DNA from: Arcobacter sp. UBA7394
GTDB lineage: Bacteria; Campylobacterota; Campylobacteria; Campylobacterales; Arcobacteraceae
NCBI GenBank assembly: GCA_002470185.1
Contig: DKNG01000115.1
Location: 14,091 to 29,343 of the forward strand
DNA length: 15,253 nt
Direction of reading: 5' to 3'
Shown: positions 2 to 9,570 of the stretch, piece after piece
Layout of the letters: every line of letters begins with the position of its first letter
Position numbering within the stretch: the stretch's first letter is position 1
Notes under the pieces: generated by a model
Told to the model about the DNA's origin: nothing
The model's input: only the letters and a program-made list of their open reading frames with translations
Databases searched by the model: none
Made by a program: the position numbers and the translations under genes

Positions 2-1717
2 ATAATTGATAATGAAATAATAGAAGTTGAAGCTCAAACACAAAGTAATGAAGATGAATTATTATGGCACATCTCACTTAGATTTGATGAAGATTTTTTT
101 AATTCGGGAATGGACATTATTTCAATTTTTAGATTCTTTAATAAAATGGGTGAAATATTAATTAATATACCTATTACCTCTTCTATTCCAAATTTAGAAA
201 ATATTGATTGTTTCAAAACATATATTGGTTTTGAATTTGATTTTGAATCAGATTGTTCTAAAGATGACATCTTAGAAATATTTGAATTTGTTGAAGATGA
301 TGTTGATTTATTGGTATTTAAACACAATGATACTGATTCACTGTTAACTCTTCTTAAACATAGAGAAAATGAAAATCTAAAAGAAATATTAATAGAAAAC
401 TGCTCATACAATGAAGAATCATTTGAAATAAAACAAACACCTATTATTCAAGAAGAGATAAAACAAGAAATTATTGAAGTAAAAACTCCTAGTACTCAAT
501 TAACAATTAACAATGAGACAATTAAAGAAGAACCAAAAGCTAATCCTGAAATTGCCAAAAAGTCTTTTTCCTTAAGAGTTGATTCTTCAAAAGTTGATTT
601 ACTTATTAATAAAATGGGTGAGATGGTAATTCAAAATGCAAAACTTATGCAAATTGCAGAACAAAATGCTGATGAGGACTTAGAAGAAGTATCAGAAGGC
701 ATTTCATTACTGCTTGAAGAAATAAGAGAAGCTGTAATGAATATTAGAATGGTTCAAGTAAAAGATTCATTTGTGAAATTTAAAAGAATAGTAAATGATA
801 CAGCAAATAAATTAGGTAAAGATATTGATTTTATTATCGAAGGTGGAGATACAGAACTTGATAAAAGTGTAGTTGAAAAACTAAGTGATCCACTTGTACA
901 TATGCTTAGAAACTCTATTGACCATGGGGTTGAAATGCCAGATGTAAGACAAAAAAATGGTAAAAGCCCAAAAGGTGTAGTTTATTTACGAGCATATCCT
1001 GACTCAGGAAGTATTATTATTGAGATTCAAGATGATGGAGCAGGAATAAATAAAAATGTTGTTTTACAAAAAGCCATAGAAAATGGTGTTGTTGATAAAA
1101 ACCAGAAATTAAGTGATAAACAAATATATAAATTAATATTTGAAGCTGGACTATCTACAGCACAAGAGGTATCAGATATTTCTGGACGTGGCGTGGGAAT
1201 GGATGTTGTAAAAAGAAACATTGAAGAGTTAAGAGGTGTAATTGATGTTGATAGCAGCGAAAATAAAGGCAGTAAAATTACAATACGTTTACCTTTAACA
1301 CTTGCAATTATTGATGGCTTCTTAGTTCAAGCAGGTGAAACAAAATATATTATTCCCTTAGATTTAATAAGTGAATGTATGGAATTAACTCCTGAATGTC
1401 AAACAAGTGTAGAAGGATCTAGCACAATTAATGTAAGAGGTGAAGTATTACCTCTTTTAGATATACGCTCCTTTTATAATGAAAAAGTCATAAATGAAAT
1501 ACGAAAAAATGTTGTGATAGTTAAGTATGGTAATTACAAAGTTGGGCTTCAAGTTGATGAATTATTTGGTGGACAACAAACTGTAATTAAACCCCTTGGT
1601 GAGATATTTGAAAATGTACCAGGGATTAGTGGAGGATCAATTCTTGGTACAGGTGATGTAGCATTAATTTTTGATATTCCAAGACTACTAGAATATCGAA
1701 TCAAACAAGGAGAATGA
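2..1717 (+). CDS. cheA: Chemotaxis histidine kinase CheA (5' end outside window)
   Basis: The reading frame is open from the first base, so the true start and the phosphotransfer (P1) domain lie upstream; the first internal ATG at 110 falls inside a conserved domain and is not the start. The visible part begins with a P2-like region of the 'W-H-I-S-L-R-F ... G-M-D' type (about 60-330). Next come a P3 dimerisation helix pair (about 565-750) and the P4 ATPase. P4 shows an N box HMLRNSIDHG (about 899-928), a G1 box DDGAG (about 1031-1045) and a G2 box GRGVGMD (about 1184-1204). A CheW-like P5 domain (about 1290-1710) ends the protein. CheA autophosphorylates in receptor arrays and passes phosphate to response regulators. 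There is no C-terminal receiver, unlike the CheAY of Helicobacter and Campylobacter. It is the first visible gene of the operon, and the next gene starts 1 nt after its stop. Confidence 0.96.
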   Translation: MIDNEIIEVEAQTQSNEDELLWHISLRFDEDFFNSGMDIISIFRFFNKMGEILINIPITSSIPNLENIDCFKTYIGFEFDFESDCSKDDILEIFEFVEDDVDLLVFKHNDTDSLLTLLKHRENENLKEILIENCSYNEESFEIKQTPIIQEEIKQEIIEVKTPSTQLTINNETIKEEPKANPEIAKKSFSLRVDSSKVDLLINKMGEMVIQNAKLMQIAEQNADEDLEEVSEGISLLLEEIREAVMNIRMVQVKDSFVKFKRIVNDTANKLGKDIDFIIEGGDTELDKSVVEKLSDPLVHMLRNSIDHGVEMPDVRQKNGKSPKGVVYLRAYPDSGSIIIEIQDDGAGINKNVVLQKAIENGVVDKNQKLSDKQIYKLIFEAGLSTAQEVSDISGRGVGMDVVKRNIEELRGVIDVDSSENKGSKITIRLPLTLAIIDGFLVQAGETKYIIPLDLISECMELTPECQTSVEGSSTINVRGEVLPLLDIRSFYNEKVINEIRKNVVIVKYGNYKVGLQVDELFGGQQTVIKPLGEIFENVPGISGGSILGTGDVALIFDIPRLLEYRIKQGE

Positions 1718-1718
1718 T

Positions 1719-2594
1719 ATGAACTTAGAAATTAATACAGGTAATGAAATTGAAATTACGGAAAAAGATATGATTGTAAGTACAACAGACAAAAAAGGAA
1801 TACTCATTTATGCAAATGATATTTTTTGTGATATTGCTGGGTACAAAAGATCAGAAGTAATTGGTCAACCTCATAATATGATTAGACATCCACAAATGCC
1901 TAAGGTTATATTCAAACTACTTTGGAACAGGGTTTTAAATGGTGAAGTAATTTATGCTTTTGTAAAAAACCTTGCTAGGAATGGTGATTACTATTGGGTG
2001 AAAGCTTATGTAAAACCAATTATAGAGAATGGGGAAGTTGTAAAAATAACTTCATATAGAAAACCATTAAATAGTTTTGCAAAAGATTATATATCGAAAT
2101 TTTACAATACATTATTAGAGTATGAAAAAACTCATTCAGTTGATGAGTCAGTACAGTTTGTTCAAAAATATTTAGAAGATAGAGATTTAACTTATGACCA
2201 ATTTATTGATAGATTATCTCTAGAGAAGAGTGTTGAAAATATCCCTATTAGAAATATTGATTATAACAAAGAGAAAAATACACATTTAATATTTAAAGAG
2301 TATTTAAATAGTTGTATTAAAAATGGACAGATTCAAGAATTAGAGAGTAAAGAACATGCAGTATATAAATTCAAAGAAATCTTTGAAAAAATGGGAAATG
2401 AAAGTTTTTCAAATGATGAAGCCTGGCTTCGATTAATTAAAACTCATTCAAAGTTCCACTCAAGTGTTGATAAATATATCAAAAAAGCAAAAGAGAATGA
2501 AAGTATGAGTTCTTTTGAAAAAATGACAGAAGATTTGAGTTGTGACATAAATAATATGTTTAATGATCTAACAATAATTAGAGATAAATATTAG
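1719..2594 (+). CDS. Soluble Aer-type PAS protein with degenerate CZB-like domain
   Basis: This 291-aa protein has no membrane segment. Residues about 15-115 form a PAS domain of the Aer (FAD-binding redox sensor) type. It shows YAND (31-34), HNMIRHPQMP (52-61), VKN (82-84) and NGDYYWV (88-94). The Trp of the Aer 'GEPW' motif is replaced (GEVIY, 75-79), so FAD binding is probable but unproven. Residues about 185-265 resemble a chemoreceptor zinc-binding (CZB) domain. H189 lies in HLIFK, H213 lies in EHAVYKF, and H243 and H247 form an HxxxH. The usual zinc-ligand Cys of the HxxCRFGKW motif is Tyr216 here. There is no signalling hairpin, so it is not a receptor itself. It lies between cheA and a receptor that lacks an input domain, which suggests it senses redox or metal and signals to that receptor. 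The CZB call is by eye from the His pattern. Confidence 0.8.
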   Translation: MNLEINTGNEIEITEKDMIVSTTDKKGILIYANDIFCDIAGYKRSEVIGQPHNMIRHPQMPKVIFKLLWNRVLNGEVIYAFVKNLARNGDYYWVKAYVKPIIENGEVVKITSYRKPLNSFAKDYISKFYNTLLEYEKTHSVDESVQFVQKYLEDRDLTYDQFIDRLSLEKSVENIPIRNIDYNKEKNTHLIFKEYLNSCIKNGQIQELESKEHAVYKFKEIFEKMGNESFSNDEAWLRLIKTHSKFHSSVDKYIKKAKENESMSSFEKMTEDLSCDINNMFNDLTIIRDKY

Positions 2595-2603
2595 GAGTCT
2601 ATC

Positions 2604-4409
2604 ATGGAAAAAATAAGAAAAACAAGAGAACACAGAATTGATAGTAGTGAGGGTTTAACACTTATTGAAGAATCATTAAAAAGTTTGTCTCAAGGTGAAT
2701 TTGATTTTCAAGAGATTCAGTGTGAGGATGAGAGTTTAAATAATATTTGTAAATATATAAATGAGGTTAAAACCCAATTATCTTATTCCTTACAAAGCTC
2801 AAGAACACTAGTTGATCAAGTATCTCAAGGTCAAGTTGATGAAAGAATTGATACTTTAAGCCTTAATGGTTCATATGCAGTACTTATGGAGAATAATAAT
2901 TACACAATTGATTTAACAGTAAGTGCCTTTAGAGATTTAGGAGAGACCGTTGAAAAACTTGCAAATGGTGATATGAGTGCAAGAATTACAAGTGAATATC
3001 TTGGAAGTTTAGGTTATTTCAAACAAATTGTAAATAACTTAGGTGAAAGTCTAATGGAATTAGTTATTGACACAGAAATGATTGATGAAGCCATTGATGC
3101 GGGTGAATTAGGTCTTAGAGTTGATACAAGTAAATATCAAAATGACTTTGTAAAAATTCATACAGCAACTAATAAAATTATAGATAATATTGAATTATTT
3201 ATAAATGATGTTAATGACAATCTTTCAATGATGCAAGAAGGTGATTTTTCACAAAGAATTGAAAACGAATATACAGGTCGGTTCAAATATACAAAAGATA
3301 GTATCAATAATTTTGCAAATAATGTTCAAATGACTCTAAATGATATTAATGAAAGTTTATTAAAAATCAAAGATGGAGATTTCGATGCCCAAATTGTAAA
3401 AAACTACAAGGGTACCTTTGAAATTAGTAAAAACTCAATTAATGAGCTGGTTTATATTTTAGGAAATATTATTACAGAAATCAAAGAGATTCTAGGGAAA
3501 ATGAGTAATGGAAATTTACTTGCAAAAATTGAGATAGAACTTCCTGGAGATTTTAATGCCATAAAACTAAATATAAATGAATTTATTGATAACTTAACAC
3601 AGATGGTAGAAAAAATCAGAACAAATGCCTCAGAAATGGGTGTTGCATCAGGTGAGGTAAATAAGACTTCACAAACATTATCTTTAGGTGCAGAGCAACA
3701 AGAGAGCTCATTAGGACAAACAACAGCCGCAGTTGAACAACTAAATGGCGCAATTGATGAGAATACAAAAAATGCTAATGAAACAAATGGTATTGCAACA
3801 GAAGCCTCACAAATGGCGAAAAAAGGTGGGGAAGCAGTATCTCAAACAGTTGAATCTATGCAAATCATTGCAGATAGAATCATAATTATTGAAGATATTG
3901 TATATCAAACAAATCTTCTAGCACTAAATGCAGCAATTGAAGCAGCAAGAGCGGGTGAACATGGAAAAGGTTTTGCAGTAGTTGCAGCAGAGGTTCGAAA
4001 ACTAGCTAAAAGGTCTCAAGTAGCAGCAAAAGAGATTAGTAGTATTACAAAAAGTAGTGTAAAGGTTAGTGAAGAAGCCGGTGAACTTATTAACTCACTA
4101 GTTCCTAAAATTGAAAGAACTGCACATTTAATTCAAAGTATTTCAAATGCTAGTAATGAACAAAGTAAAGGGATCGAGCAAATTAGCCATGCAATGGTTC
4201 AACTAGATGGTGTAACACAAAGTAATTCCACAAGTGCACAAGAGTTATCAAGTGCAGCAGAAGAACTAGACGGGCAATCAAATGGATTAGTAAAATTAAT
4301 GGAGTTCTTCAAAACTTCAAACATAAATAATAATGCTATTTTAACTCCAAATTCACTGGATTCACAATTAGACGAAACAATGGATTTAAGAGAGTTTAGT
4401 AGACTGTAA
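2604..4409 (+). CDS. Soluble methyl-accepting chemotaxis protein with seven HAMP-like repeats
   Basis: This 601-aa protein lacks any hydrophobic segment long enough to cross a membrane and has no periplasmic domain, so it should be cytoplasmic. Residues about 20-340 are a string of seven HAMP-like units. Their landmark glycines, in motifs such as [22 protein letters not shown] and DGDFDAQI, fall at residues 31, 76, 122, 167, 213, 258 and 303. The signalling coiled coil follows (about 345-565). Its tip is highly conserved, including [27 protein letters not shown] and [10 protein letters not shown] (about 433-470), which is the CheA/CheW contact zone. A low-complexity tail of about 35 residues ends in DLREFSRL. 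The gene starts 9 nt after the PAS gene with a good Shine-Dalgarno (taggag). With no sensor module, it probably takes its signal from the PAS protein next door. Poly-HAMP receptors such as Aer2 are known, but they carry their own PAS domain. Confidence 0.95.
2691..3638 (+). repeat. Seven tandem HAMP-like coding repeats
   Basis: Within the receptor gene, a unit of 45-46 codons recurs seven times. Each unit has an x-G-[DEQN]-[FLMV] turn, a short connector often ending in Y-x-G, and a following N-rich amphipathic helix. Successive turn glycines are spaced 45, 46, 45, 46, 45 and 45 residues apart. The units are divergent in sequence (no near-identical DNA repeats), so this is an old protein array and not a recent tandem duplication. 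Confidence 0.85.
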
Positions 4410-4421
4410 TAGGACTTAATC

Positions 4422-4913
4422 ATGTATGATGAACAAGAAGAAGAACTTATTAATAATACAGGGGAACAATATTTTTTGTTTCTAAGTAACAATGATTTAT
4501 ATGCATTACCAGTATTAATAGTTAGAGAAATTGTTGAATATCAAGATATTACAAAAGTACCAAAACTTAACTCATATGTAAAAGGTGTTACAAATATTAG
4601 AGGAAATATAGTTGCAGTAATTGATTTATTAGATAGGTTTGAACTGCAAGAAACAGAAGTGTTAGATCGTACTTCTTTTGCAATTGTACAAGTAAATCAA
4701 AATAGCAAAGTTCATGATATTGCAATAATGATTGATGAGATTTATGAAGTGGATGGTTTAGATGAGAATAGTCTTTGTGACACCCCTCTTTTTGGAACCA
4801 AAATAAATACAAAATTTATAAAAAATATCGCTAAATACAATGATAAAGAAGTTTGTATTATTAATCATGAAGAGGTTTTAAAAATCTCAGAACTATCTGT
4901 TATAAAGGATTAG
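4422..4913 (+). CDS. cheW: Chemotaxis coupling protein CheW
   Basis: This 163-aa protein consists almost entirely of one CheW domain. It begins with EQYFLFLSNNDLYALPV (about 15-31), followed by V-R-E-I-V and the CheW hallmark GVTNIRGNIVAVIDL (about 56-70). The usual second beta-barrel half follows, with MIDEIYEVDGL (about 105-115). CheW docks CheA onto the tips of receptors in the chemosensory array. The gene starts 12 nt after the receptor stop behind an aggac Shine-Dalgarno, and it ends 2 nt before cheV. The locus therefore encodes three CheW-fold domains in tandem transcription order: CheA P5, this protein and CheV. Confidence 0.95.
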   Translation: MYDEQEEELINNTGEQYFLFLSNNDLYALPVLIVREIVEYQDITKVPKLNSYVKGVTNIRGNIVAVIDLLDRFELQETEVLDRTSFAIVQVNQNSKVHDIAIMIDEIYEVDGLDENSLCDTPLFGTKINTKFIKNIAKYNDKEVCIINHEEVLKISELSVIKD

Positions 4914-4915
4914 TT

Positions 4916-5854
4916 ATGGATACTACAAGTTATGAAAGTGAATATGATTATCTAGATGAAGAAGAGATTGATATAGTAAAACTTGTATCTACAAATGCAA
5001 ATGATGCAAATCAATATCTACTTTTTCATGGAAAAGATGAACAATATTATGCAAAAAATGTATCTAAAATTGAAGAGATTGTAGTTTTTAAAACCCTTGA
5101 TATGGTTAGAAACTATGATGATAATCTTATTGTTGGTGTTGCTGATATAAGAGGCGAAATGTTAAGTTTAGTAAGTTTTGATTCTTGGCTTGGAGCTAGT
5201 GATTTTGATGAAAAAGATACTGAATTTGTAATAATTGTAAATTATGGTGGAGAAAAATTTGGTTTACTTGTAAAAAATGTTGAATACATTACTACAATTG
5301 AACCAAATATGATGCAATCAACTACCAGTGGTAATTCGAAATCCACATTTACTACAAAAATTGCACTTAATAATAGTGAGCATTTATGCACTATTATTGA
5401 TTCAGACAAACTTCTTTTTGATACTTTTGAAGATCAAAATGAATCTACATTAAATGATTTACAAAATATTAAATCAATTGATAATCAAAAAATGGTTCTT
5501 CTTGCTGATGACAGTAGACTAATACAAAACCTACTAAAAAAAGTATGTTTAGAATTGAATCTCAATTACAAAATCTTAAGTAATGGAGAACAGTTATTAC
5601 AAGAGATGAAGAAGTATACACAAGAAGAGATAGGATTAGTTGTTACAGATGTTGAAATGCCAATTTTAGGTGGAAAAGAAGTAATAAAAAAAGTTAGAAA
5701 TGAAGCTAAATATGATGAATTAAACATTCTAGTGCATACAAATATGGCAAATGACATTATGAAAAATGAGTTAATGACCCTTGGAGCAAATGAAATAATT
5801 TGTAAAGTAGACATTCAGTCATTAAGTATGGCAATTAAAAAATATATAAAGTAA
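4916..5854 (+). CDS. cheV: CheV: CheW domain fused to a receiver domain
   Basis: In this 312-aa protein an acidic N-terminal stretch (about 1-30) precedes a CheW domain (about 31-175), which contains GVADIRGEMLSLV (74-86). A linker (about 175-190) leads to a complete receiver (about 192-312). The receiver has the acidic pair D198-D199, phospho-acceptor D245 in TDVEMP, T275 and K297. CheV proteins couple receptors to CheA like CheW, and their phosphorylation by CheA is thought to tune the array as an adaptation or phosphate-sink device. Multiple CheV proteins are common in Campylobacterota. The receiver looks fully phosphorylatable. It lies 2 nt after cheW and 4 nt before cheR, so translation is probably coupled. 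Confidence 0.95.
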   Translation: MDTTSYESEYDYLDEEEIDIVKLVSTNANDANQYLLFHGKDEQYYAKNVSKIEEIVVFKTLDMVRNYDDNLIVGVADIRGEMLSLVSFDSWLGASDFDEKDTEFVIIVNYGGEKFGLLVKNVEYITTIEPNMMQSTTSGNSKSTFTTKIALNNSEHLCTIIDSDKLLFDTFEDQNESTLNDLQNIKSIDNQKMVLLADDSRLIQNLLKKVCLELNLNYKILSNGEQLLQEMKKYTQEEIGLVVTDVEMPILGGKEVIKKVRNEAKYDELNILVHTNMANDIMKNELMTLGANEIICKVDIQSLSMAIKKYIK

Positions 5855-5858
5855 AATC

Positions 5859-6644
5859 ATGTTTAATATATCTCTCAAAAACAGCGAATTTGCAATCATT
5901 AAAAAATTAGTTTTTAATGAAATTGGAATTACATTAAATGATTCAAAAAAAGATATGGTTCAAACTAGATTATTCAAAAGATTGAACTATTATCAAATAA
6001 AAGATTTTTCTCATTATTTAAAAATTGTTCAATTATCAAAATTTGAGAAATCACAATTTTTAAATCAAATAAGCACAAATGAAACATATTTTTTCAGGGA
6101 AACTGCACATTTTGAATTTTTGGAGCAACTTGCAAAGAATTCAAAAAGTCTTAGGGTTTGGAGTGCTGCAGCATCATTTGGTGCAGAAGCATATTCCATA
6201 TCAATGGTTTTAGATTCTAATTTATTCAACTGGGAAGTAGTTGGAACAGATATAAATACTCATGTTTTAGATATTGCAAGATTGGGATTATATCAAGTTG
6301 CTCTATTAGAAAAAATTCCTAAAAAATATCAAGAAAAATATTGTCTTGTAGGAAGAAATCAATATGAAGGGAAAATGTTAGTAGATAGAAAACTACAATT
6401 TCAAACTAATTTTTTAGAGAATAACTTAATGAGCAAAAATAATGAGTTAGGAAAGTTTGATGTAATTTTTTTAAGAAATGTTTTAATCTACTTTACAGAA
6501 GAAACAAAAATCAAAGTAATAAAAAATATTCTTCATAATTTAAAAAAAGGTGGTTACTTAATAGTTGGAATGACTGACTATTTTCATCACGAAGAATTTA
6601 ATGCATTAGAATATGTAAAAGACTCTATTTATAAAAAGGTTTAA
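5859..6644 (+). CDS. cheR: Chemoreceptor glutamate methyltransferase CheR
   Basis: This 261-aa protein is the normal length for CheR. An N-terminal helical domain (about 1-70) precedes the signature STNETYFFRE (72-81). The SAM-binding core follows, with RVWSAAASFGAEAYSISM (99-116), where canonical proteins have CSTGEEPYS. After that come GTDINTHVLDIA (129-140) with the SAM-contacting Asp131, FDVIFLRNVLIYF (200-212) and a GGYLIVG strand. CheR methylates Glu side chains on receptors using S-adenosylmethionine, opposing CheB. No TPR extension is present. The likely substrate is the soluble receptor in the same operon. The 'GAEAY' variant keeps Gly and Tyr, so activity is expected. Confidence 0.95.
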   Translation: MFNISLKNSEFAIIKKLVFNEIGITLNDSKKDMVQTRLFKRLNYYQIKDFSHYLKIVQLSKFEKSQFLNQISTNETYFFRETAHFEFLEQLAKNSKSLRVWSAAASFGAEAYSISMVLDSNLFNWEVVGTDINTHVLDIARLGLYQVALLEKIPKKYQEKYCLVGRNQYEGKMLVDRKLQFQTNFLENNLMSKNNELGKFDVIFLRNVLIYFTEETKIKVIKNILHNLKKGGYLIVGMTDYFHHEEFNALEYVKDSIYKKV

Positions 6645-6646
6645 TT

Positions 6647-7519
6647 ATGTTTGAACAAGAAAAAACAAACTTAAAATTTATTGCAAAAAATAAAAATTTA
6701 TTACTGTTTGGAGAAGATAACCTTAGGCATTTAAATGGTTTATTCAATATGTTTAATGATATTTTAATTCAAGAGTCAACAGATTACACACTAAATAATT
6801 TAAATACAACAATATTAAATAACAATATTGATGTAGTCATTATTAATTCAAAAGAGAATATAGAGGAGATTTCTTTATATCTTCTTGAAATTATAAAAAA
6901 TGAAGATATAAAGATTTTATACTGTCAAAATGAAGAGGAAGAAGTTCACTTTAAAATGTTAAATATTTCAAATACATCTTTTACAAAAAGTATAAATGAA
7001 GAACTTCTAAGTTATAAAATGTATTCATTATTACAAGAAAAAGCTTTTGATGAAACAAAAACTACAGAGGATACAAATAGTACTTATATTGATTCTTTTG
7101 AGATTCAAATAATTTTTATTAGGGATGAGCTTTATCACTTATCTAAAAATATAGATCAAGGAGATATTTCCGAAGGCAACATACATAAGATAAAACAATC
7201 AATTAATAGAATAAATAGGATTTTCGAAAATTATTTAATGTATTCAAAAAAAATTAAAAACTCAATGAAATATTTTGCAATTATGCTTAATAAAGTAGAT
7301 TTAAAAAAAGCTTCTGTTAACAATATTGAAAGTTTTACTTATCTCTCTCGGATTATTGAAGATATTGCATTATTCTTAGATAATTATTTTATTAAACGTA
7401 ATTTTACTGATTTATACGTGGTTGAGGACTCATTAGAAAACTCTTTAAGATTTCTTAAAAGTTCTTTTAAAGAAAAAGAACAAAATACTGATGACAGTAG
7501 TTTGGAGTTTTTCGAATGA
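6647..7519 (+). CDS. Pseudo-receiver protein with helical domain and LEFF tail (unnamed)
   Basis: This 290-aa protein belongs to no named family I recognise. Residues about 15-125 line up with the receiver of the 339-aa regulator three genes' width downstream. The first strand ends in GED (22-24), strand three reads IDVVIIN (61-67), and Lys114 in FTKS matches the conserved receiver Lys. At the phospho-acceptor position Asn67 replaces Asp, and Cys93 replaces the Thr/Ser, so phosphorylation is unlikely. Residues about 145-275 are helical and align almost without gaps to the C-terminal domain of the 339-aa protein (shared pattern DI...F....N..D......DS.EN...F). Both proteins end in an acidic tail with LEFF. 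The gene follows cheR by 2 nt and overlaps cheB by 4 nt (ATGA). A regulatory partner role in this array is inference. Confidence 0.75.
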   Translation: MFEQEKTNLKFIAKNKNLLLFGEDNLRHLNGLFNMFNDILIQESTDYTLNNLNTTILNNNIDVVIINSKENIEEISLYLLEIIKNEDIKILYCQNEEEEVHFKMLNISNTSFTKSINEELLSYKMYSLLQEKAFDETKTTEDTNSTYIDSFEIQIIFIRDELYHLSKNIDQGDISEGNIHKIKQSINRINRIFENYLMYSKKIKNSMKYFAIMLNKVDLKKASVNNIESFTYLSRIIEDIALFLDNYFIKRNFTDLYVVEDSLENSLRFLKSSFKEKEQNTDDSSLEFFE

Positions 7520-8547
7520 TAAAAGTATTTATAATTGATGATTCTATGATAGTTAGAAATGCATTAAATAAAATCTTACAATATGAACAAAACATCAAGG
7601 TGATTGGAGAATCAGCTAATCCTGTAGATGCTTTTGAAATTTTCAAAAAAGTAGGATTACCTGATGTATTTATATTGGATATAGAAATGCCCAAAATGGA
7701 TGGTTTAACATTTTTAAAACAGATTAATAAGCAAAAACACATACCTGTTATAATTTGTTCAACTTTAGTTAGCGATGGATCAAGTTCTGCTATTGACTCA
7801 CTTAGACTTGGGGCTTTAGATATTATTTTAAAACCAAAATTAAATCTAAAAGATTTTTTTAATGAACAAAAAGAAGAAATTATTCGTGCAATTTATTCAG
7901 CATCAAAAGCAACAGTAAGATACAAACCAAATATTATTGAAAAAAAAGATTTGAACAAAAAGCCAATATCAAAAAAATCTTCTAAAAATTTTGTTGTTAT
8001 TGGTTCAAGCACTGGAGGTGTACAGGTATTAGAAGAAATAATATCAAAATTAAAAGAGAACCATATAGGTATAGTAATCACACAACATATGCCCGAAGGC
8101 TTTACAGCATCCTTTGCAACTAGACTAAATAAAATTACTAGTTCAAATGTAGTTGAGTCAAAAGATGATGAATCAATAGACATTAATAAAGTCATAATCT
8201 CAAAAGGTGGTGTGCACACTGAAATAATAAAAAAAGGAGATGAGTATTTTACAGTTCTAAAAGATTACCCAAAAATCAATAGTCATAAACCAAGTGCTAA
8301 TGCATTATTTAAATCTGTATCAAAAATTAAACCACAAAGTATTACAGCATTTATACTAACAGGAATGGGTGATGATGGTGCTTTAGGTATAAAAAAACTA
8401 AAAGAAATGGGATATAACACTTATGGTCAAAACGAAGAAAGTTGTATTGTGTATGGAATGTCAAATATTGCTAATCAAATTGGTGGAATAGAAAAAGAAG
8501 TATCCACTAATGAGATAATTGAAATTATAAACTCTTTAGAAGGATAA
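7516..8547 (+). CDS. cheB: CheB: receiver plus receptor methylesterase/deamidase
   Basis: This 343-aa protein has the standard full-length CheB layout. The receiver (about 1-115) contains D8-D9, phospho-acceptor D55 in LDIEMP, S82-T83 and K106. After a linker, the methylesterase domain (about 157-340) shows the catalytic triad: S165 in GSSTGG, H191 in TQHMPEGFT and D287 in LTGMGDDGA. CheB removes methyl groups from receptor glutamates and is activated by phosphorylation from CheA, giving adaptation feedback. The presence of the receiver is notable because Campylobacter jejuni CheB lacks one. The start overlaps the previous stop (ATGA), which indicates translational coupling. Confidence 0.96.
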   Translation: MIKVFIIDDSMIVRNALNKILQYEQNIKVIGESANPVDAFEIFKKVGLPDVFILDIEMPKMDGLTFLKQINKQKHIPVIICSTLVSDGSSSAIDSLRLGALDIILKPKLNLKDFFNEQKEEIIRAIYSASKATVRYKPNIIEKKDLNKKPISKKSSKNFVVIGSSTGGVQVLEEIISKLKENHIGIVITQHMPEGFTASFATRLNKITSSNVVESKDDESIDINKVIISKGGVHTEIIKKGDEYFTVLKDYPKINSHKPSANALFKSVSKIKPQSITAFILTGMGDDGALGIKKLKEMGYNTYGQNEESCIVYGMSNIANQIGGIEKEVSTNEIIEIINSLEG

Positions 8548-8550
8548 AAC

Positions 8551-9570
8551 ATGAAAACTGATGTGAATTTATTAATAAAACTAGCTAAGGGTAAAAAGGT
8601 GCTTTTAATAGAAGATGATGAAAAGATTTTAGAAATTTTTAAAGTTGCACTAGAAACATATTTTTCCCTTGTAAAAACAGCTGTTGACGGGAAACAAGCT
8701 TGGGATTTATTTCGAAAAGAACATTTTGATTTAATCGTAAGTGATATTCAAATGCCTAACACAAATGGAATTATGCTAAGTAAAGGAATAAAAGCCCATA
8801 CTCCTGAACAAAATATTTTGATTACATCTGCATATACAGATGAAAAATATTTATTAGAGCTTATTGACATTGGAGTTGATGGTTTTTTAAAAAAACCTAT
8901 TAGTACTTCAAATCTAAAAAGTACAATAACAAAAATACTAAAAAAAATTCAATCAAAAAAAGAGCTAGAAAGAGTAAAATTTAATACTTACGTAAAACAG
9001 ATCTCAAAAAGAAATATTGATGAAACAAGAAAAAGTCCTACACAAGTAAAAATTGAGCAGGACATAGAACAAACTGCAAAAGTATCAGTTAAAGAATTTT
9101 TAGAAAAAATAAAAATTGAAGATCCTGAAAGTTTCTATTTTTTTGATAATCAAAAAGAAATACTTATGGATACATTATATGATATGAGTGATAATTTTGA
9201 TAGTTTTGTTTATAAAGAATATAAAGAACACGAACATTTAAACCAATTAATTGATGATCTTCATAAACTTCACTCTACTCTTAATTATTTTGATAGAGTA
9301 GAAAAAGTAACAGTTGAAGTGCTAAGATTAGCTGAAGTATTAAATGAAATTAATTTAGATGATATACATTATGGGATTAAAGAAGAAGCTTTTAGTATTT
9401 TAGAATTTTTGATAAATGATATAAAACAATATGTTTTAGATATGTTTATGGAAGAGAATGTTCAAGATGTAAACTACTTTCATGATTCATATAGAGAAAA
9501 TATTACTTTCTTTGAAAATACAATAAATCAAAAAGAAAAAGAAGATGAGGATGATTTAGAATTTTTTTAG
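8551..9570 (+). CDS. Response regulator: receiver plus helical domain with acidic LEFF tail
   Basis: In this 339-aa protein the N-terminal receiver (about 14-135) looks intact. It has E21-D22-D23, phospho-acceptor D65 in VSDIQMP, T92 and K115 in FLKKP. A Lys-rich linker (about 135-180) leads to an all-helical C-terminal domain (about 185-318) of unknown function, followed by an acidic tail ending DDLEFF. No DNA-binding, GGDEF, HD or kinase motif was seen, and no CheZ-type DxxxQ was found. The C-terminal domain is shared with the 290-aa pseudo-receiver upstream of cheB. As the only intact single-output regulator in the operon besides CheB and CheV, it is a candidate phosphate acceptor from this CheA. 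It is the last gene of the operon and converges on the flavodoxin gene, with 4 nt between stops. Confidence 0.85.
   Translation: MKTDVNLLIKLAKGKKVLLIEDDEKILEIFKVALETYFSLVKTAVDGKQAWDLFRKEHFDLIVSDIQMPNTNGIMLSKGIKAHTPEQNILITSAYTDEKYLLELIDIGVDGFLKKPISTSNLKSTITKILKKIQSKKELERVKFNTYVKQISKRNIDETRKSPTQVKIEQDIEQTAKVSVKEFLEKIKIEDPESFYFFDNQKEILMDTLYDMSDNFDSFVYKEYKEHEHLNQLIDDLHKLHSTLNYFDRVEKVTVEVLRLAEVLNEINLDDIHYGIKEEAFSILEFLINDIKQYVLDMFMEENVQDVNYFHDSYRENITFFENTINQKEKEDEDDLEFF

Follow-up and report, generated by a model that had tools for sequence, protein, structure and literature searches.

The DNA considered here, a window of 15,253 nucleotides from Arcobacter sp. UBA7394 (contig DKNG01000115.1), contains most of a chemosensory operon on its plus strand, in which cheA, a PAS protein gene, a chemoreceptor gene, cheW, cheV, cheR, a gene for a 290-amino-acid (aa) protein (P290), cheB, and a gene for a 339-aa protein (RR339) follow one another. 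P290 and RR339 are interpreted as belonging to a so far uncharacterised family of adaptors in the chemosensory systems of Campylobacterota. A sequence-only reading had described the two proteins as sharing a whole architecture, and the comparison agrees with it: both combine a receiver-like N-terminus, a homologous helical C-terminal domain (CTD), and an acidic tail. P290 (6647..7519), recognised from sequence, predicted structure, and an identical position in 8 of 8 genomes, fills the slot between cheR and cheB. It joins a pseudo-receiver (receiver-like fold at residues 14-134, 6686..7048, by predicted structure and alignment, with N67 in the acceptor column) to a CTD of five predicted helices (residues 144-274, 7076..7468, by homology and predicted structure) and to the C-terminal tail SSLEFFE, whose codons (7496..7516, by translation and alignment) stand directly before the stop. 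RR339 (8551..9570, by domain search and predicted structure) consists of a receiver domain retaining D65 and K115 (residues 14-126, 8590..8928, by domain search and alignment), a linker, a CTD of CheA-P1-like predicted fold (residues 192-325, 9124..9525, by homology and predicted structure), and the tail EDDLEFF (9547..9567, by translation and a tail pattern scan).

The two receivers differ in their acceptor columns. That of RR339 matches PF00072 (E 4.3e-25), and D22, D23, D65, S93, and K115 are present in 30 of 30 aligned members of its family (alignment A5); with the acidic pair, the acceptor Asp, the Thr/Ser, and the Lys all in place, it is a true response-regulator receiver. P290 likewise has a receiver fold, and its acceptor position holds N67 in the window protein, with Asp there in 0 of 43 (alignment A4) and 2 of 15 (alignment A3) sequences. 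The acceptor columns as aligned bear out the earlier claim of one phospho-competent and one phospho-dead receiver, the latter being so in nearly all sequences.

The remaining genes were assigned mainly by domain search, namely cheA (2..1717, cut by the window start), the PAS protein gene (1719..2594), cheW (4422..4913), cheV (4916..5854, with CheW-like domain and receiver matches), cheR (5859..6644, also by alignment), and cheB (7516..8547, an open reading frame (ORF) whose start overlaps the P290 stop). Translation and domain search gave the chemoreceptor (2604..4409), which has five HAMP_2 stretches and the C-terminus DLREFSRL. Relatives of the window at 90% identity or more belong, where named, to Poseidonibacter lekithochrous. 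The window operon is regarded as an additional system, because the same genome carries a second che cluster (cheA, cheR, cheD, and cheB) elsewhere; excerpts of an earlier survey report Arcobacter with the F7 class only (PMC9321776). In operons of this type, a single-domain receiver of 120-121 aa is encoded upstream of cheA (L023-L028; own contig L033:13046-13411), and several (L023, L025-L027) have an ORF of about 90 aa between the two.

An unnamed C-terminal domain and its distribution

The CTDs of P290 and RR339 are homologous, with five helices followed by a disordered acidic tail ending LEFF, and this homology sustains the proposal that the domain common to both proteins is real and unnamed. 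In RR339, the domain may resemble CheA P1/histidine phosphotransfer (Hpt) domains in its predicted five-helix fold and in size. The top three matches of a structure search with RR339 (VIA) were CheA P1, but helical bundles reach such Z scores by chance, and the RR339 model has a modest overall confidence (predicted local distance difference test, pLDDT, 65); the structure lists for P290 (VIA, Foldseek) are filled by receivers, do not cover the CTD, and show no family for it. The resemblance does not extend to sequence: comparison with the CheA P1 of the same operons detected no relation (hhalign probability 0.7%), and no phospho-His within HxxKG is conserved in the CTD (alignment A7), where the commonest His column (47 of 61) belongs to a DIHYLD stretch, whereas His, Lys, and Gly are invariant in the CheA P1 of these operons. 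The CTD as an active Hpt is rejected on these grounds. No Pfam model was clearly matched by the CTD: among the 25 of 83 Pfam families listed, too few to prove that Hpt is absent, none had more than three of the 61 CTD members at E values of 1 or less (best E 0.004). The CTD profile found only weak matches to helical proteins in a PDB sequence search (a designed protein, E 0.0017; FliS, 0.0027), and P290 has no match in NCBIfam. No description of the CTD or tail was found in a literature search that reached few subscription journals, nor in the available excerpts of PMC9321776, PMC9665402, PMC7390727, PMC7698151, PMC8609364, PMC2577667, and PMC7750401.

Parts of the CTD proteins resemble known ones, including the receiver, perhaps a CheA-P1-like fold, and a docking peptide. 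PorX combines a receiver, a helical domain, and a PglZ part; P290, compared with it by description only, differs in that its 290 aa stop after the CTD and tail. ChePep, a Campylobacterota chemotaxis protein linked to CheZ localisation, is alike by description in that a receiver-like domain at its N-terminus is combined with a conserved region at its C-terminus. According to excerpts of PMC7750401, it is reported to work with CheZ.

Profile searches covered 397 Campylobacterota-class genomes. The P290 profile matched in 12 of them, with a real P290 in 8; in G134, G209, G319, and G328 the match was confined to the C-terminal part of receiver-CTD proteins. All 8 genomes have P290 between cheR and cheB, in keeping with the suggested link to che genes, and it touches cheR in 7; in the remaining operon, a ParA-like gene (L028:11082-11897, with SKGGVGKST) is inserted between the two. 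P290 is absent from two further genomes of this genus. In 6 of the 8 P290 operons a second CTD gene follows cheB at a distance of two genes at most, and none lies near cheB in L024 and L026. P290 can therefore occur with no 339-type gene beside it, whereas no case of P290 away from che genes was seen (0 of 8).

The CTD itself is much more widespread, with 108 profile matches in 55 of the 397 genomes, two of which are doubtful (in G215 the match falls in a 313-aa ORF resembling another protein, and in G325 it was not recovered on re-search). A CTD motif scan of named genomes gave 140 relatives, of which the 80 listed belong mostly to Sulfurospirillum, Sulfurimonas, Sulfuricurvum, or Campylobacterota-named metagenome-assembled genomes, with a few vaguely named. 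The CTD is joined to receivers, dead receivers, PAS domains, and other N-termini, and also occurs in longer receiver-x-CTD proteins; by sequence, a CTD protein is an N-terminal input domain followed by the homologous CTD and an acidic linker and tail. At least two che labels were present within the stretch taken at 39 of 52 annotated CTD loci, a selection from the profile matches plus the window, and CheR was present in 55 of 55 CTD genomes vs 20 of 25 other genomes sampled. Because the CTD and tail recur in many che operons of related bacteria, the CTD looks like an uncharacterised plug-in adaptor. One possible divergent case is a 339-aa protein encoded upstream of cheR (L249:5482-6501, L254:7731-8750), which has an N-terminus like that of L085 and the tail EIEFF and perhaps contains a very divergent CTD.

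In a tree of 79 CTDs, P290 forms one group (100/98) and the RR339 type together with L022 another (99/97). The two groups join (99/98), at a point where long branches meet, as a tool warning indicated. The downstream partners of L023, L025, and L027 fall far from both, and that of L028, a 575-aa protein, has as its nearest neighbour an orphan gene (99/95) from G129, a P290 genome without an adjacent partner. Since at least three CTD lineages are found there (RR339 with L022; L023, L025, and L027; L028), the slot downstream of cheB was filled more than once.

The C-terminal tail and CheZ-like proteins that share it

The CTD proteins end in a conserved motif, roughly [LIMVF]-[ED]-[FLM]-F after an acidic linker. 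In 43 P290 sequences, E287, F288, and F289 are invariant, and the terminal residues are better conserved than the preceding linker. Written as [DENSGT][LIMVF][ED][FLM]F with up to two further residues allowed, the motif is present in 55 of 64 and 83 of 91 CTD proteins (two sets that overlap in their source genomes) vs 3 of 1071 other ORFs of at least 150 aa from the same loci, and these three are receivers adjoining CTD genes, two of them from one genome. The tail is thus a near-signature of CTD proteins, close to diagnostic on these counts.

Pattern searches at the DNA level that took no account of the CTD gave a similar picture. The pattern [DE][DE]x[DE][FL]F-stop had 15 matches in 11 genomes vs 4 for the reversed pattern; 8 of them terminate frames longer than 60 aa, 6 with a CTD, the other two being a GGEEF-motif protein (L224, G129, with the end NEELDFF) and one unassigned protein. 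The narrower [DE][DE]xEFF-stop had 17 matches vs 3 reversed in 52 genomes, 13 of which end real frames (at least 134 aa), 12 carrying a CTD and one being CheZ-like; the remaining four are chance frames of 9-10 residues, two each in CTD-positive and other genomes. A real ORF with this end was found in 11 of 16 CTD-positive genomes vs 0 of 36 others. The tail is also retained on CTD proteins without a detected receiver (L074, L075, L083, and L093) and, because of this, probably acts in trans.

CheZ is the CheY-P phosphatase whose C-terminus binds CheY. Small proteins of 119-139 aa with a DxxxQ motif, first met as an ORF of G333 in the tail pattern scan and here called CheZ-like, mostly share the C-terminal tail of P290 and RR339. 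Their profile matched in 13 of the 397 genomes at E<1e-10; at E<=1e-3 it matched in 42, of which 29 weak cases (E 4e-6 to 7e-4) were excluded from the count. The genes adjoin che genes in 12 of the 13 genomes. Among 12 proteins listed, DxxxQ is present in every one and the end [LI][ED]FF(E) in 10; by sequence, most CheZ-like proteins of related che operons thus carry the same tail. In alignment A10, DxxxQ is found in 5 of 5 and an AxxYQ-DxxxQ block in 3 of 5; excerpts of PMC7750401 describe this block for CheZ, with Tyr in epsilon-proteobacteria. Genomes of family f3 (L270-L279, L281-L285) gave weak CheZ-like profile matches (E about 1e-4) to a conserved 173-aa protein ending SYYA.

In the 13 sampled operons of the window type, P290 and the CheZ-like protein alternate. 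A six-frame search found 8 with P290 and no CheZ-like protein, 5 with a CheZ-like protein and no P290 (G229, G240, G379, G368, and G060, with cheV confirmed in 4 of the 5), and none with both. G361 has P290 in one operon and a CheZ-like protein in another.

Other genes of CTD loci also show recurrent features. Receptors of many CTD operons (L030-L032, L069, L089-L100, L126, L141, and others) end in (E/D)DDL[KR]EF or close variants, and a DNA pattern for such receptor tails proved too loose, with matches in 62 of 80 genomes and also for the reversed control. A kinase-like protein of about 270-315 aa, often with an EMKEF-like end, is encoded between cheR and cheD (L030, L031, L032, L064-L073, and others); F[LM]S[LI]IKN[VE]FNNP was found in 31 of 40 tested, 9 being unmatched by this expression, and its Asn occupies what we take to be the position of the H-box His, which makes the protein a probable pseudo-histidine kinase integrated in these che operons. 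At Sulfurospirillum-type loci (L064-L068, L129, L135-L137, L144, L145), a PAS/kinase-like gene directly precedes the one for the receiver-CTD protein, an arrangement that would suit a separate two-component pair feeding into the che operon.

The tail as a proposed docking peptide and competing explanations

On the CheZ-like proteins, the tail holds the place of the CheY-binding C-terminus of CheZ, and for this reason it is read here, by analogy, as a peptide that would dock on a phospho-receiver, P290 being the phospho-blind and RR339 the phospho-switched version. This reading is put forward tentatively, at slightly less than even likelihood. The tail would dock on a phospho-receiver of the pathway, CheY-type first, in the manner of the C-terminus of CheZ, and the CTD, maybe CheA-P1-like and devoid of a phospho-His, could be a scaffold anchoring the proteins in the che complex. 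In RR339 and other proteins with intact receivers, phosphorylation would switch the exposure of the tail. P290, which would not be phosphorylated in the usual way, may be a constitutive competitor or scaffold that sets the amount of free CheY-P, a role proposed for operons without a CheZ-like protein. A more far-reaching version, in which diverse sensors (with receivers, dead receivers, PAS, or other N-terminal domains) and CheZ-like phosphatases of Campylobacterota would compete through acidic [LIMVF]-E-[FL]-F tails for one receiver hub in a common undescribed docking code, with P290, as a phospho-dead receiver, replacing the phosphatase in one operon type, is rather doubtful.

Several observations weigh against docking on a phospho-receiver. 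P290 and RR339 differ from CheZ in having a receiver fold and no conserved DxxxQ (the best [DE]xxx[QN] column pair reaches 27 of 43 in A4 and 25 of 30 in A5), which rules them out as CheZ-type phosphatases. The name CheZ-like is itself a reading of the motif block, because the family has no clear Pfam match (5 members) and no clear PDB sequence match (profile), and the CheZ-like gene of G249 (L293; DxxxQ, tail DLSELF) has no che genes nearby and belongs to a genome in which no CheR was found. The alternation of P290 and CheZ-like proteins concerns small numbers of operons (8 vs 5) from related genomes, all found through P290 or CheZ-like searches, with operons carrying neither lying outside the sample; the G379 contig begins at cheR, so that its operon is visible only from there on, and in L286 three genes separate cheR from cheB. 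All five CheZ-like operons have a receiver-CTD-like gene after cheB, but these are weak CTD matches: four have E values of 7e-8 to 1.5e-5, the fifth was assigned by position and tail only, and a six-frame search at E<=1e-5 recovers only one of the five. Some CTD proteins lack the tail (two in L102, and those of L176, L150, L132, L133, L210, L213, and L218) or have variants such as DLILF, DLIFF, and DDIFDF, and at 13 of the 52 CTD loci no che cluster was present within the extracted DNA. Similar ends occur, moreover, on other proteins: 36 of 43 receptors encoded at CTD che loci (G and named copies of a genome both counted) have DL[KR][EDN]F at the C-terminus, in some cases followed by three further residues, the kinase-like protein ends ..E[FLM] in 29 of 37, and the second-cluster CheD of the window's genome (L206:761-1438) has a C-terminal extension ending EMEIELF, near to the CTD tail. 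Such acidic ...EF ends fit a CheR/CheB tether or a general tail equally well.

The tether is the main rival. It holds that the tail is of receptor type and binds CheR and/or CheB, so that P290 and RR339 recruit or sequester the adaptation enzymes encoded alongside them, and the location of P290, flanked by cheR and cheB in 8 of 8 operons, is consistent with this, as are the ends just described. NWETF is the C-terminal pentapeptide of E. coli Tar that tethers CheR and CheB. The P290 and RR339 tails share with it a flexible linker, a C-terminal Phe, and an acidic residue two places before the Phe, and four further receptors encoded in the window's genome have the ends DEWASF, DDEWESF (two), and DSWESF. 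Unlike NWETF, however, these tails are not on a receptor, and position 2 is Leu instead of Trp in both window proteins (L/I/M/F/V in relatives), with Phe at position 4 (F/L/M in the family). NWETF-like peptides are described in excerpts of PMC7390727 as mostly acidic, with W at position 2 and F at position 5, and excerpts of PMC2577667 give the pattern for binding CheR/CheB as C-terminal xWxxF or x[FY]xx[FY]. DLEFF and SLEFF(E) depart from this pattern at the Leu of position 2, and some relatives (EFELF) fit it. By alignment, the window CheR retains two (G188, G194) and the L066 CheR one (R197) of the six peptide-contact residues listed in the same excerpts (PMC2577667). The tether is not the first choice because CheZ-like proteins share the tail and because these contact residues are poorly kept, and it is considered somewhat unlikely.

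The other explanations are weaker candidates. The CTD might be a CheA P1 decoy that binds either the kinase domain of CheA or partners of P1 and reduces kinase output, with a secondary role for the tail; the predicted fold points in this direction, but the missing sequence relation to CheA P1, the Z scores that helical bundles attain by chance, the modest RR339 model, and structure lists that do not cover the CTD of P290 argue against it, and it is judged improbable. With its degenerate receiver and its rarity, including its absence from two genomes of the genus, P290 could also be one of two ordinary accessory response-regulator-like proteins, for instance a phosphate sink plus a decayed copy, sharing no special mechanism. 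This is quite improbable, given that few parts of the P290 family are as well conserved as the tail, which other architectures also carry. Least probable is the obligate P290-RR339 heterodimer of the sequence-only reading. The frequent second CTD gene downstream of cheB and the joining of the P290 and RR339 groups in the CTD tree speak for it; the two operons of eight with no CTD gene near cheB, the at least three lineages of downstream genes, and the many CTD proteins found without P290 speak against it. The exclusive pair that had been suggested is ruled out by the CTD tree and by the genome distribution (CTD in 55 vs P290 profile in 12 of 397).

Outside E. coli, chemosensory operons include numerous auxiliary genes to which no role has been assigned. 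In the present sample of 397 genomes, a single unnamed domain, marked by its near-diagnostic tail, accounts for 108 matches and ties receiver and PAS inputs to che operons. The proposal leads to a prediction that is open to a peptide-binding experiment, namely that one receiver or adaptation enzyme would be the hub for all of these tails.

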